From: Clostridia bacterium
GTDB lineage: Bacteria; Bacillota; Clostridia; Oscillospirales; Acutalibacteraceae
Assembly: GCA_017440755.1 (NCBI GenBank)
Contig: JAFSGP010000031.1
Coordinates: 1-64,000, forward strand
Direction of reading: 5' to 3'
Length of the DNA: 64,000 nucleotides
Below are positions 2,287 through 63,239 of the stretch, piece after piece (within the stretch, counting starts at the first letter, position 1; each line of letters starts with the position of its first letter). The translations under genes were made by a program, and so were the position numbers. Below the pieces are notes generated by a model. It worked only from the letters and a program-made list of their open reading frames with translations, was not told the DNA's origin and made no database searches.

Positions 2287-3759
2287 ATGCGTTACATAAC
2301 GCCTGAGGAGGCGGGGGTTTCCTCGTCTGCGATAACCGCTTTTATCCATCTGCTGGAGGAGCATCGCATTCCCACCCACAACCTGATTCTTGCCCGTGGT
2401 GACGCCATCTTTTACGAGGGTTACTGGGCCCCGTTTCATAAGGACTTTGCGCACCGCATGTACTCGGTGTCCAAGAGTCTGGTGGCGTTGGCGGTGGGCT
2501 TTTTGGAACAGGACGGATTGGTGGATTTGGACGAGCGAATCTTCACCTATTTTCCCGAAGAATCCGCCGCCCAGACGGACGCCAATATGGCCGCCCAGAC
2601 GGTGCGAAATATGCTGATGATGAGCACCGCCAAGGACGATGGCTTCTGGTTTGCGGATAAACCCGCCGACCGTGTGCGGTACTATTTTGAGAATCCGCGC
2701 CCCAGCCGTCCCTGCGGGCGGTATTTCCGCTACGACAGTGCCGGCTCCTTTGTGCTGTGTGCGCTGGTAGAGCGGCGCAGCGGAAAGCGGTTTATTGATT
2801 ACCTGCGGGAGAAGCTGTTTGACAAGATTGGTGTGTCGGGTGCTGTTCGTTGCCTGCAGTGCCCCGGCGGTCACTCTTGGGGGGACTCGGCGGTGATCTG
2901 TCCGCCGATGGATATTCTCAAGATTGCCCGTTTTACGATGAACGGTGGCAGCTGGAATGGGGAGCAGATTCTCAACCGCGCCTTTGTGGAGGCGGCGGTG
3001 TCCAAACAGATTGATAACGGCTACCTCAGCGAGAATCAGTATAATACCCAAGGGTACGGTTACCTGATTTGGCGCACCTTTGATAACAGCTATTTCTTTA
3101 ACGGTATGGGCGCACAACTGGCGGTATGCGTGCCGGATAAGGACATTATTATGATGTTCAACGGCGATACCCAGGGCCGTGACCCGGCGGCGCGCTCCAT
3201 TTTGATGGACGGCTTTTTCCGCTTAATTGCCCGTCCGGCGGCGGAGGGCTGCTTGCCTGCCGATACGGCGGCCGCCGAAGAGCTGGCGGCGCTTACCGCC
3301 TCTCTCAAGCTGGTCGCCACGACGGGCGAAAAAACCTCGTCCATGGCGGACAGGGTGAACGGCGTTACCTACACGATGGGGGAGAACCCGATGGGCATCA
3401 CCCGTATGCGGTTTTCCTTCACCGAGGATGGCGGCATCTGGCACTATACCAACGCACAAGGGGATAAACAGCTCGCTTTTGCGATGTGCAAGAACGCCTT
3501 TGGTGAATTCCCGCAGGACGGGTATGCGGACGAGATTGGCACCGTGAGCGGCAACCGCCGCTATGCCTGTGCCGCTTCTGCGGCGTGGGTGGAGCCCAAC
3601 AAGCTGAATCTGCAGGTGCAGATCATCGATACGTATTTCGGTAATATGCACGCGGTTTTTTCTTTTGGCGAGAATGACTGCTGTGTGGTTATGAATAAGG
3701 CGGCAGAGGATTTTCTGGACGAGTACGTGGGCGAGGCCTACGGCACCGCCGACGCATAA
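2287..3759 (+). CDS. Serine hydrolase, class C beta-lactamase/esterase family
   Basis: Member of the penicillin-binding-protein-like serine hydrolase family; real substrates are usually esters or peptides, so antibiotic resistance should not be assumed. The nucleophile motif SxxK is S60-V-S-K63, followed by the Y149-D-S motif expected about 90 residues later. No signal peptide is visible, so probably cytoplasmic. The catalytic domain occupies about residues 1-320, and a C-terminal beta-rich region of about 150 residues follows. 490 residues. RBS AGGAGA precedes the ATG. It lies 21 nt after the nucleotidyltransferase and 14 nt before hpt, so likely one operon. Confidence 0.8.
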   Translation: MRYITPEEAGVSSSAITAFIHLLEEHRIPTHNLILARGDAIFYEGYWAPFHKDFAHRMYSVSKSLVALAVGFLEQDGLVDLDERIFTYFPEESAAQTDANMAAQTVRNMLMMSTAKDDGFWFADKPADRVRYYFENPRPSRPCGRYFRYDSAGSFVLCALVERRSGKRFIDYLREKLFDKIGVSGAVRCLQCPGGHSWGDSAVICPPMDILKIARFTMNGGSWNGEQILNRAFVEAAVSKQIDNGYLSENQYNTQGYGYLIWRTFDNSYFFNGMGAQLAVCVPDKDIIMMFNGDTQGRDPAARSILMDGFFRLIARPAAEGCLPADTAAAEELAALTASLKLVATTGEKTSSMADRVNGVTYTMGENPMGITRMRFSFTEDGGIWHYTNAQGDKQLAFAMCKNAFGEFPQDGYADEIGTVSGNRRYACAASAAWVEPNKLNLQVQIIDTYFGNMHAVFSFGENDCCVVMNKAAEDFLDEYVGEAYGTADA

Positions 3760-3773
3760 AGGAGAGAAAGACT

Positions 3774-4322
3774 ATGCATAAGGACTTATCGCGCATTCTG
3801 CTGTCGGAGCAGGAATTGGACGAGACCATCACCCGCATTGCCGCCGAGCTGGATCGGGATTATGCGGGTGAGGAGCATCGGCTGGTGCTGGTGTGTATCC
3901 TCAAGGGCTCTGTGGTGTTTATGGGCGAACTGATGAAAAAGATTACCATTCCCGTGGAGATTGACTTTATGCGGGTTTCCTCCTATGGCAACGGCACCGA
4001 GACCACAGGTCATATCAACATTATACTCGACCTGTTGCGCAAGGATCTGGATAAAAGCGATATTCTCATTGTGGAGGACATCATCGACAGCGGCCGCACC
4101 TTGGCGCACTTGAGTCAGTACCTGACGTTAAAGGGCGCACGCAGCGTGCGCACCTGCACGTTGCTGGATAAGCCCTCCCGCCGCGAGGTGGACTTCACTG
4201 CCGACTACGTGGGCAAGGTGATTCCCGACGAGTTCGTGGTGGGCTACGGTCTGGACTATGATGAAAAGTATCGCGCCTTGCCTTATGTGGGTATCCTCAA
4301 GCCGGAAATCTACTCAAACTAA
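3774..4322 (+). CDS. hpt: Hypoxanthine phosphoribosyltransferase
   Basis: Purine salvage: hypoxanthine or guanine plus PRPP to IMP or GMP. The PRPP-binding loop is VEDIIDSGRT and the N-terminal half holds LKGSVVFMGEL; 182 residues, standard for bacterial HPRT. RBS AAGGAGAG is 6-8 nt before the ATG. Last gene of the 1354-4322 run, ending at a strong shared terminator. Confidence 0.95.
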   Translation: MHKDLSRILLSEQELDETITRIAAELDRDYAGEEHRLVLVCILKGSVVFMGELMKKITIPVEIDFMRVSSYGNGTETTGHINIILDLLRKDLDKSDILIVEDIIDSGRTLAHLSQYLTLKGARSVRTCTLLDKPSRREVDFTADYVGKVIPDEFVVGYGLDYDEKYRALPYVGILKPEIYSN

Positions 4323-4363: not shown

Positions 4364-5116
4364 TTACAATACTTTGCTTAAGAACTCTTTCAGACGGGGG
4401 CACTGGGGACGCTCGAACACGTCCTCGGGAGTACCCTGTTCCATGATTTTGCCGCCGTCCATAAAGAACACGCGGGAGGCAACCTCACGGGCAAATCCCA
4501 TCTCGTGGGTGACGATAACCATGGTCATACCTTCCTCGGCCAGCTGCTTGATGAGGTCCAGCACCTCGCCGACCATCTCGGGGTCCAGAGCGGAGGTGGG
4601 CTCGTCGAACAGAATGACCTTGGGGTTCATCGCCAGCGCACGGACGATAGCCACGCGCTGCTTCTGACCGCCGGAGAGGGTAGAGGGGTACTTGTCTGCC
4701 CAGTCGTCTAAGCCGATGCGCTGCAGAAGCTTGTGGGCGTTTGCCTCGATATCCGCCTTGATTTGGGCGCGCTTTTCGCGGTCGCGGACACCCTTGAGCC
4801 CAATATGCAGAGGCGCCAAGGTGATATTCTGCAGCACCGTCTTGTTATTAAAGAGGTTAAACTGCTGGAATACCATACCCATACGCTGACGGTGGTAGTT
4901 GATGTCGACCTTCATATCGGTGAGGTCCACACCCTCGAACATAATCGAGCCGGAGGTAGGGTCCTCCATGCAGTTGAGACAGCGCAGGAAGGTGCTCTTG
5001 CCGCTGCCGGAGGGACCGATGATGACGATGCGCTCGCCCTCGTGAATGGTTTCGCTGATTTCGTCCAGTACGGTCAGGTTGCCGTAGCGTTTTGTCAGAT
5101 TAATTGCTTCTATCAC
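4364..5116 (-). CDS. Polar amino acid ABC transporter, ATP-binding protein
   Basis: GlnQ/ArtP-type ATPase energising uptake of an amino acid. Walker A GPSGSGKS, signature LSGGQKQR, Walker [15 protein letters not shown] and the H-loop VTHEMGF are all present. 250 residues. The start overlaps the end of the permease gene by 17 nt, so the two are translationally coupled. Third gene of the binding protein-permease-ATPase operon. Confidence 0.95.
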
Positions 5117-5810
5117 TTTTACGCAGGCTCCTTTCCATACATTTAATACCTAAGGTGATGAGCGCCACCAGCACAATGTAGATGAGCGCCATAAACAGAT
5201 AGGGCATCAGATATTCGTAGGTCTTGTTACCAATCTCGTTGAAGGTCTTGTACAGGTCAATGGCCGCTACGAAGCTGACCACGGAGGTATCCTTGACCAA
5301 AGCGATAAGCTCGTTACCCAAGGTGGGGAGGATATGCTTGACCGCCTGAGGAACCACGATTTTCATCATGGTGGTGCCATAGCTCAAGCCTACTGCACGC
5401 CCCGCCTCCATCTGTCCGGGATCCACCGACAGAATGCCGCCGCGCATAATCTCGGATACGTAGGCACCGGAGTTGAGTCCGAAAACCAAAATACAGGTGT
5501 TCAGCGAACCGATGTTAATACCGCACAGGGGGAATAACACGTAGTAGGCGAGCAGCAGCTGCACCACAATGGGGGTACCGCGGAAAAAGCCTACGTACAC
5601 ACCGCAAATCTTATCTAAGATGCGGGGGAGAAGCTTGTACTTCGGCATCACCTTGACAGAGGCGATGAGGGTGCCGATCACGATACCCATCAGCAGACCG
5701 ATGAAGGCGATGAGCAGGGTGTTGACCAAGCCTTCGCCCAATACCCGCTGCCAGGCGCCGCCGGTGCCGAACTTTTCCCAGAAAACTAACCATTTGTTGA
5801 CAATATCCAT
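5100..5810 (-). CDS. Polar amino acid ABC transporter, permease
   Basis: HisM/GlnP-family inner-membrane subunit (236 residues) with about five membrane segments. The characteristic amino-acid permease region runs from [14 protein letters not shown] to [22 protein letters not shown], containing the EAA-loop Gly that contacts the ATPase. Start ATG at 5810 preceded by AAAGGA. It would function as a homodimer with the ATPase at 4364-5116. Confidence 0.93.
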
Positions 5811-5889: not shown

Positions 5890-6735
5890 TTAGCCGTTAA
5901 CAGCCTTAGCAATGGCGTTGGCGGGAGCGTTGTCCACGATGACGTAGTCAATCTCGCCGTTGATCATAGCGGTGACAGCCAGAGCGGCATAGTCATACTC
6001 CATCTTGGTGGCGGTCAGACCGGCGAAGCCGTAGCCGTCGGGATCGTCGCTGTCACCCTCGATGTAGATGGCTCCGGTGGTGCCCTTCTGGCAGCCGGCT
6101 TTGCCGTTGAGCGCATTCAGAGCGGCCACGATGTCGTCAGCGCTCTTGCAGGCGTCAAAAGCGGTGCTGTCAGCGGGAACCATTACCACCTGGTTGGCGC
6201 TGTAGTAGGAATCGCTGAAGGTGACGATCTCCTCACGAGCGGGGGTGATGGTCAGACCAGCCATACCAATGTCGCAGATGCCCTGCTGTACGGAGGTAAC
6301 AACCGCGTCAAACTGCATATCCTTGATAACCAGCTCTTTGTTCAGGTACTCGGCCAGACCGGCGGCGATCTCCAGATCGATACCGCTGTACTTGCCGGCG
6401 TCCACCATTTCGAAGGGCTCAAAGCCGGTGGAGGTAGCTACGACAAGCTGATCCTTGGAGGAATCCTCAGCCGCAGACTCGATGGCGGCGGGGGTACCAT
6501 CGCCGAAGTACTTGTCGCAGATGGCATCGAAGGTGCCGTCGCCCTTGATCTTAGCCAGGTACTCGTTGACCTTGCCCAGCAGCTCGGTGTCCTCCTGGTT
6601 TACGCAGAAAGCGTAAGCCTCCTCGGACAGAGCGATGTCGATGACCTTTACCTTAGCGGCGCCGGTGGTAGCACAGGAGCAGCACAGCACAGCCAGCATA
6701 GCGATAACGGCCACAATGGAAAGAATCTTTTTCAT
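5890..6735 (-). CDS. Amino acid ABC transporter substrate-binding lipoprotein, apparently circularly permuted
   Basis: Extracellular receptor (SBP_bac_3 family) for the importer encoded downstream. Start is the ATG at 6735 with GAGGAG upstream. Residues 1-21 form a lipoprotein signal (hydrophobic run ending CCSC, probable acylated Cys21). The order of parts is unusual. Residues about 29-80 (IDIALSEEAYAF through DGTFDAICDKYFG) match what is normally the C-terminal end of this family. Residues about 95-281 (LVVATSTGFEPFE, SGIDLEIAAGLA, MAGLTITPARE, YVIVDNAPANAI) match the normal N-terminal and middle parts, and the protein stops where the usual tail would begin. A 14-residue linker joins the two pieces. 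The frame is continuous. Family assignment is firm; permutation is my inference from motif order. Confidence 0.9.
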   Translation of the reverse strand: MKKILSIVAVIAMLAVLCCSCATTGAAKVKVIDIALSEEAYAFCVNQEDTELLGKVNEYLAKIKGDGTFDAICDKYFGDGTPAAIESAAEDSSKDQLVVATSTGFEPFEMVDAGKYSGIDLEIAAGLAEYLNKELVIKDMQFDAVVTSVQQGICDIGMAGLTITPAREEIVTFSDSYYSANQVVMVPADSTAFDACKSADDIVAALNALNGKAGCQKGTTGAIYIEGDSDDPDGYGFAGLTATKMEYDYAALAVTAMINGEIDYVIVDNAPANAIAKAVNG

Positions 6736-7030: not shown

Positions 7031-7063
7031 GTCACAGTTCATGAAATGTGGACAAATCCTTGC

Positions 7064-7083
7064 CTCATCTCAAGGGTGAGGCC
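7064..7083 (+). promoter_or_regulatory. Leader hairpin ahead of rpsF, candidate S6:S18 autoregulatory site
   Basis: GCCTCA and TGAGGC pair across a short loop (about 7065-7082) just before the Shine-Dalgarno AAGGAGGTG (7094-7102). In several phyla the rpsF leader binds the S6:S18 complex for feedback control. The position fits, but I could not verify the conserved CCG-containing bulge, so this is a candidate only. Confidence 0.35.
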
Positions 7084-7108
7084 ATCAGACCATAAGGAGG
7101 TGCAATCT

Positions 7109-7408
7109 ATGCCCACAATCAAAGCATCCTACGAGGCCGTTTTCATCTTCTCCCTGGCTCAGGGTGAGGAGAGCGTCAATGCACTGAAGGAGAAGTTCAG
7201 CGCCCTGATCGCTCAGAATGCTGAAATCGGCGAGACCGACGAGTGGGGCAAGCGCAAGCTGGCCTACCTCATCAACGACGAGGCGGAGGGCTACTACGTC
7301 CTGTACAACTTCGTCAGCGGTCCCGAGTTCCCTGCGGAGCTGGAGCGTGTCAGCGGTATTACCGACGGCGTGCTGCGTTCGATGGTTATCCGCAAGGAAG
7401 AGAACTAA
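7109..7408 (+). CDS. rpsF: 30S ribosomal protein S6
   Basis: Small-subunit platform protein that binds 16S rRNA together with S18. 99 residues; contains the family segments YEAVFIFS and the LAYLINDEAEGYYVLYNF region. The ATG at 7109 follows AAGGAGGTG by 6 nt; the frame extends upstream but has no ribosome site there. First gene of the conserved rpsF-ssb-rpsR operon. Confidence 0.97.
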   Translation: MPTIKASYEAVFIFSLAQGEESVNALKEKFSALIAQNAEIGETDEWGKRKLAYLINDEAEGYYVLYNFVSGPEFPAELERVSGITDGVLRSMVIRKEEN

Positions 7409-7421
7409 GGAGGAGTAAACC

Positions 7422-7868
7422 GTGAACAGTATCTGTTTGATGGGTCGTTTGACCGGAGATCCCGAGCTCAAGACCACCCAGAACGGCTTCTCCGTGACCA
7501 GCTTCAGCGTGGCTGTTGACCGTGCGTTCCGTGGCAAGGACCAGGAGCGTCAGACGGATTTCATCAACTGCGTGGCTTGGCGCGGTACCGCCGAGTTTAT
7601 CTCCCGCTACTTCCGTAAGGGACAGCGTATTGCCCTGCAGGGCTCTCTGCAGTCCCGCCGCTACACGGCCAACGATGGCAGCCAGCGTACTGCCTACGAG
7701 GTCGTGGTCGACAATGCATTCTTCTGTGAGGCCAAGGGCGGTAACGCCGGCGGCGCTCCCAGCTACGATTCCCAGATTCCTCAGCCCGTGGAGGCACGGC
7801 CTGCCTTCTCCACCGCCAATGCGGGGGACTTTGAGGAGATCCTCACCGATGAGGACCTGCCCTTCTGA
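7422..7868 (+). CDS. ssb: Single-stranded DNA-binding protein
   Basis: OB-fold protein (about residues 1-105, NSICLMGRLTGDPELK and FINCVAWRGTAEFI) with a disordered acidic tail ending EDLPF, the tip that docks replication and repair partners. 148 residues. Begins with GTG at 7422, 6-8 nt after AGGAGGAG. Lies between the two ribosomal protein genes, as in most Bacillota. Confidence 0.97.
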   Translation: MNSICLMGRLTGDPELKTTQNGFSVTSFSVAVDRAFRGKDQERQTDFINCVAWRGTAEFISRYFRKGQRIALQGSLQSRRYTANDGSQRTAYEVVVDNAFFCEAKGGNAGGAPSYDSQIPQPVEARPAFSTANAGDFEEILTDEDLPF

Positions 7869-7910
7869 GATTTGGAATCGGCTGAAAATTGAGAAAAGGA
7901 GGCCTTCGTA

Positions 7911-8168
7911 ATGGCTGAGAGAACCGAGAGACCCGAGCGCCCCATGCGCCCCGGTCGTAAGGGCCACCGTAAGGTGTGCCAGTTCTGCGTGGATAAGATT
8001 GACTACATCGATTACAAGGATGTGGCTCGTCTGCGCCGTTGCATGTCCGAGCGGGCAAAGATTCTGCCCCGCCGTGTGACCGGCACCTGCGCTCGTCACC
8101 AGCGTGCTCTGACCACCGCTATCAAGCGTGCCCGTCAGGTAGCCCTGGTGCCCTTCGTTGCTGAATAA
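7911..8168 (+). CDS. rpsR: 30S ribosomal protein S18, four-cysteine form
   Basis: Partner of S6 on the 30S platform. 85 residues, with the conserved [11 protein letters not shown] and [19 protein letters not shown] segments. Cysteines at 23, 26, 44 and 60 fit a zinc-binding (C+) type of S18, known as one of two forms of several ribosomal proteins. RBS AAAGGAGG upstream of the ATG. Ends the operon. Confidence 0.97.
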
Positions 8169-31967: not shown

Positions 31968-32061
31968 TGGCTTCTGCGTAAACTCATTACCAACATAAAA
32001 AACTAAGCAACACCGAATGGTGTTGCTTAGTTTTTGGTGCGGGCAAGAGGACTTGAACCTC
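31956..32061. repeat. Direct repeat copy B, ending in the intact tRNA-Leu
   Basis: Partner of 31776-31881 at a 180-bp period: same 37-bp flank, then the tRNA-Leu(CAG) terminator, then the last 27 nt of the real tRNA. Confidence 0.8.
31997..32034 (-). terminator. Terminator of tRNA-Leu(CAG)
   Basis: On the minus strand the CCA end is followed at once by AAAAACTAAGCAACACC, loop ATTC, GGTGTTGCTTAGTTTTTT. Confidence 0.9.
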
Positions 32062-32121
32062 CACCGAATTGCTCCGATATGAACCTGAATCATACGCGTC
32101 TGCCAGTTCCGCCATGCCCGC
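32035..32121 (-). tRNA. tRNA-Leu, anticodon CAG
   Basis: 87 nt including encoded CCA. Acceptor GCGGGCA pairs with TGCCCGC; the D-arm starts GCGGAACTGGC; anticodon stem TATGA/TCATA with loop TTCAGGT, reading CUG codons; a long variable arm (class II); T-arm GGAGGTTCAAGTCCTC. No clear promoter is visible just upstream on the minus strand; it lies 105 nt after the end of the GDPD gene and may be read through from it. Confidence 0.97.
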
Positions 32122-63152: not shown

Positions 63153-63239
63153 GCCGCTGTGGTGGAACTGGCAGACACAAGGGACTTAAAATCCCTCGGT
63201 GGAAACACCGTACCGGTTCGATTCCGGTCAGCGGCACCA
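63153..63239 (+). tRNA. tRNA-Leu, anticodon TAA
   Basis: 87 nt with encoded CCA. Acceptor GCCGCTG/CAGCGGC, D-arm GGTGGAACTGGC, anticodon stem AGGGA/TCCCT with loop CTTAAAA, long variable arm (CGGTGGAAACACCG), T-arm CCGGTTCGATTCCGG. Class II tRNA reading UUA/UUG. Confidence 0.97.

Follow-up and report, generated by a model that had tools for sequence, protein, structure and literature searches.

Circularly permuted SBP_bac_3 receptors of ABC importers in Clostridia and the rejection of a single origin for their permuted forms

The window (the whole stretch of DNA analysed, 64,000 nucleotides of a Clostridia contig) contains a gene for a substrate-binding protein of the SBP_bac_3 family that does not follow the canonical linear order of head, D2, and tail. 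The order is instead tail, head, and D2 (named CP1 herein). The product is very likely a working lipid-anchored amino-acid receptor of an ABC importer, encoded by a naturally circularly permuted gene; there are no binding or transport data. The segment order, its conservation, the importer operon, purifying selection, and the rejection of one origin for all permuted forms are shown by the data below. The receptor gene, its segments, and the two importer genes are as follows.

5890..6735, minus strand: gene for the permuted SBP_bac_3 lipoprotein of 281 aa, with tail, linker, N-terminal part of D1, and D2 in that order (CP1)
6673..6735, minus strand: signal peptide with lipobox, whose Cys21 is conserved in all 22 aligned sequences
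6496..6651, minus strand: residues 29-80, equivalent to the C-terminal segment of canonical receptors and made up of the last strand of D2, the second crossover strand, and the two D1 helices at the C terminus, from Pfam, the AncQR alignment, and AlphaFold2 (AF2)
6454..6495, minus strand: residues 81-94, linker that connects the former C terminus with the former N terminus, from the alignment
6175..6453, minus strand: residues 95-187, the N-terminal D1 segment of the canonical order, which carries the GFEPFE and TITPAR motifs and the invariant R167
5893..6174, minus strand: residues 188-281, the D2 lobe without its last strand, ending in VDNAPANAIAKAVNG, D268 invariant
5100..5810, minus strand: gene 2 of the operon, for the ABC permease (BPD_transp_1)
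4364..5116, minus strand: ABC ATPase, ABC_tran, GTG start, overlapping the permease gene

The receptor gene runs on the minus strand from an ATG at 6735 to a stop at 5890-5892, and no internal stop interrupts the 281 codons, as an initial annotation made from the sequence alone had stated. The encoded chain consists of the lipoprotein signal (Cys21), VKVIDIALSEEAYAFCVNQEDTELLGKVNEYLAKIKGDGTFDAICDKYFG, a short linker, and QLVVATSTGFEPFE...TITPAR...VIVDNAPANAIAKAVNG, followed by the stop. Because the chain terminates ~13 residues past VDN, it carries no second tail. Compared with the Pfam model PF00497, the protein as encoded produces two crossed stretches (110.1 bits against a curated cut-off of 26.4 bits, which establishes SBP_bac_3 homology). 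Residues 97-208 match model positions 1-111, and the tail (residues 29-80) searched alone matches positions 98-131 (27.7 bits, E 2.5e-6). When the tail is rejoined after the head, the resulting string matches positions 1-131 as a single stretch with 116.5 bits. The alignment to the solved AncQR structure (4zv1) is likewise crossed, with residues 96-277 corresponding to chain residues 11-176 and residues 27-79 to chain residues 181-233.

These results bear on several claims of the initial annotation. Its coordinates and its description of a tail segment (residues 29-80) placed after the signal, then a linker, then the head, held in both the Pfam and AncQR comparisons, and the separate search it proposed did align the tail to the C-terminal region of the SBP profile. 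Its placement of the termini and the break at the hinge failed as worded. The break is inside D2, ahead of its last strand, and corresponds to the interval from residue 176 to residue 181 of the AncQR chain. By the lobe limits of GlnBP, D2 contains the new termini and D1 the old ones, which the linker now connects.

In GlnBP and LAO, the ligand is anchored by the Arg of TITPxR, the Asp of VDN, and the aromatic residue of GFxPFE. The corresponding residues of the window protein (R167, D268, and F105) are all present and are invariant in the alignment of 22 sequences, as are F142, G160, Q216, G218, T219, and T220. The linker (residues 81-94) is the most variable part of the mature protein and the fastest changing at the protein level.

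Structure prediction with AF2 and the 22-sequence alignment gave a mean pLDDT of 87.6 and a pTM of 0.77. The tail blocks have pLDDT values of 92-98 and form the expected strand-strand-helix-helix succession (strands at 29-32 and 39-46, helices at 50-65 and 68-77). When the model was compared to the PDB with Foldseek and VIA-align, only residues 89-281 (two thirds of the model) aligned, and they did so to cluster F amino-acid receptors (Z 12-14, rmsd about 3-4, 166-180 residues aligned). Both aligners depend on chain order and cannot place the tail, so its absence from the aligned ranges is no evidence against it. Docking of the tail at its canonical site is predicted by the model and rests on sequence homology and AF2 confidence, with no order-free superposition. 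Sequence searches of the PDB were made with one CP1 query and one query of a second permuted order (CP2, described below). In the alignments inspected, every chain has the canonical order or is a canonical tandem, and the CP1 order was not recognized in any solved chain.

A scan of genome_contigs with one genome per species identified 21 full-length relatives with 50-82% identity to the window protein over the alignment, and every one of them keeps the CP1 order (21/21). In the family to which the window belongs, a profile built from the alignment identified the order in 34 of 200 genomes; it was also identified in 16 further genomes from other families of the order and in 25 more genomes of the class, including three single-contig genomes (G658, G686, and G805). 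Among these 25, one family (f32) has the order in 16 of its 18 sampled members. Within the phylum but outside the class, no CP1 order was seen in ~290 genomes, and plasmid records yielded no relative covering 80% of the query. Segment order in the fetched loci was checked using separate HMMs for head, D2, and tail. Most loci were picked with the CP1 profile, which may bias the sample towards proteins with a tail-head junction; a check with PF00497 itself in 12 chosen genomes returned 16 canonical, 12 CP1-order, and two CP2-order genes, and none broken in D1. The closest canonical-order match to the window protein has at most 47% identity. Close orthologues share the permuted order, and standard-order relatives occur as separate, more distant genes; with the tail aligning to the SBP C-terminal region, neither of the two outcomes that the initial annotation had named as refuting came about. 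Values of dN/dS against close relatives are 0.06-0.24 for the tail and 0.10-0.33 for the head, both well below 1, and purifying selection acts on both segments.

The operon was described as an intact importer operon, and this held: genes for a BPD_transp_1 permease and an ABC_tran ATPase lie on the same strand. Both are downstream of the receptor gene in 21/21 loci from genome_contigs. Rfam scans of the window and 20 relatives found no riboswitch or other RNA that would name the ligand. Because the order is conserved (single-contig genomes included), the operon is kept, selection is purifying, and the ligand-anchoring residues are invariant, both an assembly error and a decaying gene can be excluded. 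The circular permutation reading itself is supported by the crossed sequence matches, the confident AF2 fold, occurrence in many genomes including single-contig ones, and purifying selection.

Other features of the window were recorded. On the strand opposite the operon, a beta-lactamase-fold protein and a phosphoribosyltransferase-domain protein are encoded at 2287-4322 (+). Upstream of the receptor gene, at 7046-8168 (+), there is a ribosomal protein S6 gene followed by ssb-like and rpsR-like genes, the last two identified by sequence reading. Two tRNA genes occur at 32038-32121 (-) and 63153-63236 (+). Variants of the CP1 gene were seen in other genomes, including one protein with an insertion within the D1 head segment (L094:1060-2196, -) and one receptor fused with its permease in a single 532-residue open frame (L087:238-1833, +).

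Several permuted forms with different breakpoints occur across the class, which the initial annotation had not noticed. The CP2 order consists of lipobox, D2, tail, linker, and head, ends at QVIIVKK, and was recognized in proteins from the family search that the profile matched only from tail into head. Five CP2 proteins are fused C-terminally to a permease (L052, L058, L061, L062, and L152), and a sixth is assigned to this group by length (L153, 537 aa). In a third order (CP3), the break falls within D2, with its second half N-terminal and its first half C-terminal. The three CP3 proteins (L171, L173, and L181) belong to a family outside the class (f173). Every breakpoint found is in lobe D2, and the tail-linker-head junction is common to all permuted forms.

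Loci with more than one receptor domain were also encountered. One has two CP2 domains in tandem with a permease in a 779-residue open frame (L189:400-2736, +). Two others within the order are canonical SBD-SBD-permease tandems (L109:1615-3930, +, and L110:273-2555, +) with near-identical SBD copies, from which we read them as recent internal duplications. These two tandems and the CP2-CP2-permease protein are possible candidates for intermediates. In one genome (G445), a CP1 gene is directly followed by a CP2-order gene (L084:588-2370, -), a pair that may be a snapshot of duplication with a second permutation. Directly upstream of another CP1 operon is a second permuted receptor with the order D2, tail, head (L005:468-1379, +). 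It comes from a more distant SBP subfamily, has its own permease and ATPase, and has a relative (L213) in G049.

Maximum-likelihood trees were constructed using head, D2, and tail columns set in canonical order for every protein. The window protein belongs to a clade whose 37 representatives are without exception permuted (31 CP1 and six CP2), with support of 95/72 in the careful tree and an SH-aLRT of 99 in the quick tree. Further CP1-order proteins (L089, L092, L093, and L161) and their close relatives branch among canonical proteins, and these independent CP1-order proteins have up to 72% identity to their canonical neighbours. Parsimony requires 13 changes of the canonical label in both trees, counting gains and losses. 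A single clade of all permuted proteins was rejected by the AU test (p 6.7e-5), as were groupings of all CP1 proteins (p 0.0018) and of all CP2 proteins (p 1.4e-56). Circular permutation seems to have arisen more than once in the class. The groups for the AU tests were chosen after the first tree, so the p values are somewhat optimistic; bootstraps are not fully settled, and some of the changes could be reversions to canonical order.

Recent cases indicate how the segments are related. In BLAST comparisons with the canonical protein L172, the CP1-order protein L159 gave crossed matches with 70.9% identity for the head and 71.2% for the tail, and L092 gave 66.1% and 66.0%, also in crossed order. 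Because head and tail are equally identical to the same canonical protein, they share one history, that of a single gene that was re-cut. Identities between the window clade and canonical proteins are 40% and 50% for head and tail and discriminate poorly. Within the window clade, the six CP2 proteins retain the C-terminal DDTTFDxC...ADV stretch of the CP1 clade, and the protein L088 matches a CP1 protein (L018) with 61 and 49% identity in crossed order. It is likely from these two observations that a permuted gene was permuted again, giving CP2 within the CP1 clade; the alternative is a shared tandem ancestor. Linkers vary between permuted groups in both length and sequence.

Four rival explanations were considered. 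The one that survives best, while still unlikely, is a single ancient permutation followed by re-cutting and repeated reversion to canonical order. In its favor, the tail-linker-head junction recurs in every permuted form, losses as well as gains enter the parsimony count, and the six CP2 proteins inside or beside the CP1 clade indicate that re-cutting probably occurs. Against it are the rejection of one permuted clade (p 6.7e-5), the independent CP1-order proteins that have canonical neighbours of up to 72% identity, and linkers whose length and sequence differ by group. A second rival, in which pieces of two different SBP paralogues were fused and no single gene was permuted, is very unlikely. 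These genomes do carry several SBP_bac_3 genes, with three in the genome of the window, but the recent independent cases have matching head and tail identities to L172 (70.9/71.2% for L159 and 66.1/66.0% for L092). There is similarly little to support a non-transport role, such as sensing or a scavenging decoy lipoprotein. The protein is lipid-anchored and its ligand is not known, but permease and ATPase genes follow in 21/21 loci, the ligand-anchoring residues are invariant, and fusions of a permuted domain to a permease exist (L052, L058, L061, and L087). That the order is a chimera of assembly, or a rearrangement local to a single metagenome-assembled genome (40 contigs, 85.6% complete), is all but excluded by the same order in 21 independent assemblies with 50-82% identity, in 34/200 family genomes, and in single-contig genomes.

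Under the preferred reading, a working receptor made by circular permutation, the old ends, which are neighbours in D1, would have been joined by the ~14-residue linker, and new ends would have opened in D2 just before its last strand. A linker of 14 residues would suffice because the old termini are close together in D1. The Venus-flytrap fold and ligand site would be retained, with R167 holding the carboxylate and D268 the amino group. An amino acid would be bound between the lobes and then passed to the adjacent permease and ATPase as usual. In topology, D1 would become one continuous piece and D2 would be split. Physically, the one clear change would be an N-terminal lipid anchor carried by D2 and no longer by D1. 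The gene is likely to have arisen when a standard gene was duplicated in tandem and the two copies fused, after which the first copy lost its front and the second its back. No leftover of a duplicated copy adjoining the receptor gene was recognized. The amino-acid ligand, anchor geometry, and duplication route are inferred, with no binding data. Anchor placement may be the most economical selective reason for permutation, because every permuted form seen has its N terminus in D2. Drift without selection, by way of tandem-domain intermediates, remains possible as an alternative to selection on the anchor.

A permuted SBP of another class is already known. TpMglB-2 (Tp0684) of Treponema pallidum and relatives is a glucose receptor of cluster B with a permuted chain, and the name 'Type Ic / Cluster Bc' was proposed for it (PMC4990184). 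Like the window protein, it is a lipid-anchored receptor of an ABC importer that was circularly permuted in nature, and it is conserved in a lineage; its type is reported in Gram-positive gut bacteria as well and keeps the bilobed fold and ligand-induced closure (PMC4990184). The authors advanced a similar idea, that membrane anchoring drove the permutation (PMC4990184). In that cluster B sugar receptor the first three N-lobe strands moved to the C terminus. The window protein is instead an SBP_bac_3 amino-acid receptor of cluster F, with its tail relocated to the front and the break in D2. The window protein is thus a permuted ABC-importer receptor but does not belong to cluster Bc, since its Pfam and PDB matches are to SBP_bac_3 and cluster F rather than to the Type I, cluster B sugar family. 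It is homologous in all segments to canonical cluster F receptors (GlnH, ArtJ, the ArgBP of T. maritima, and AncQR 4zv1), has the same motifs and the same predicted fold, and differs from them in linear order and in the place of the termini and lipid anchor. In SBD1-SBD2-permease proteins of the GlnPQ type (6h30), the SBD1 tail followed by the SBD2 head gives the same local order as the window junction. Such proteins have two complete canonical domains and a fused permease, unlike the window protein, which has 281 aa, one domain, and a separate permease gene and is not a fusion of this type. A GlnPQ-type tandem is possibly the kind of intermediate involved, and is not the same arrangement.

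The statement of the initial annotation that no family with this order has been described agrees with the literature searched, which contained no permuted SBP_bac_3 or amino-acid receptor (most subscription papers were outside its reach). The text of the CIRPIN permutation survey does not mention periplasmic, solute-binding, or substrate-binding proteins. Within the literature searched, the permuted SBP_bac_3 receptor is new.

Natural circular permutations are mostly known as single old events, and the surprising part here is the recurrence together with breakpoints found only in D2. For annotation, profile and structure searches that depend on order treat such receptors as fragments, with partial and split matches. 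Naturally tolerated termini in D2 would be useful in the design of biosensors from these receptors. A bolder reading, which we regard as no more probable than its negation, is that the amino-acid receptors of Bacillota are a natural hot spot for permutation. By this reading, independent lineages would have cut the receptor at no fewer than three sites, all of them in D2, and a gene already permuted would have been permuted a second time (CP2 within the CP1 clade, and beside a CP1 gene in L084). The shift of the anchor from D1 to D2 may then have come about by selection on the docking of a tethered receptor with its permease.
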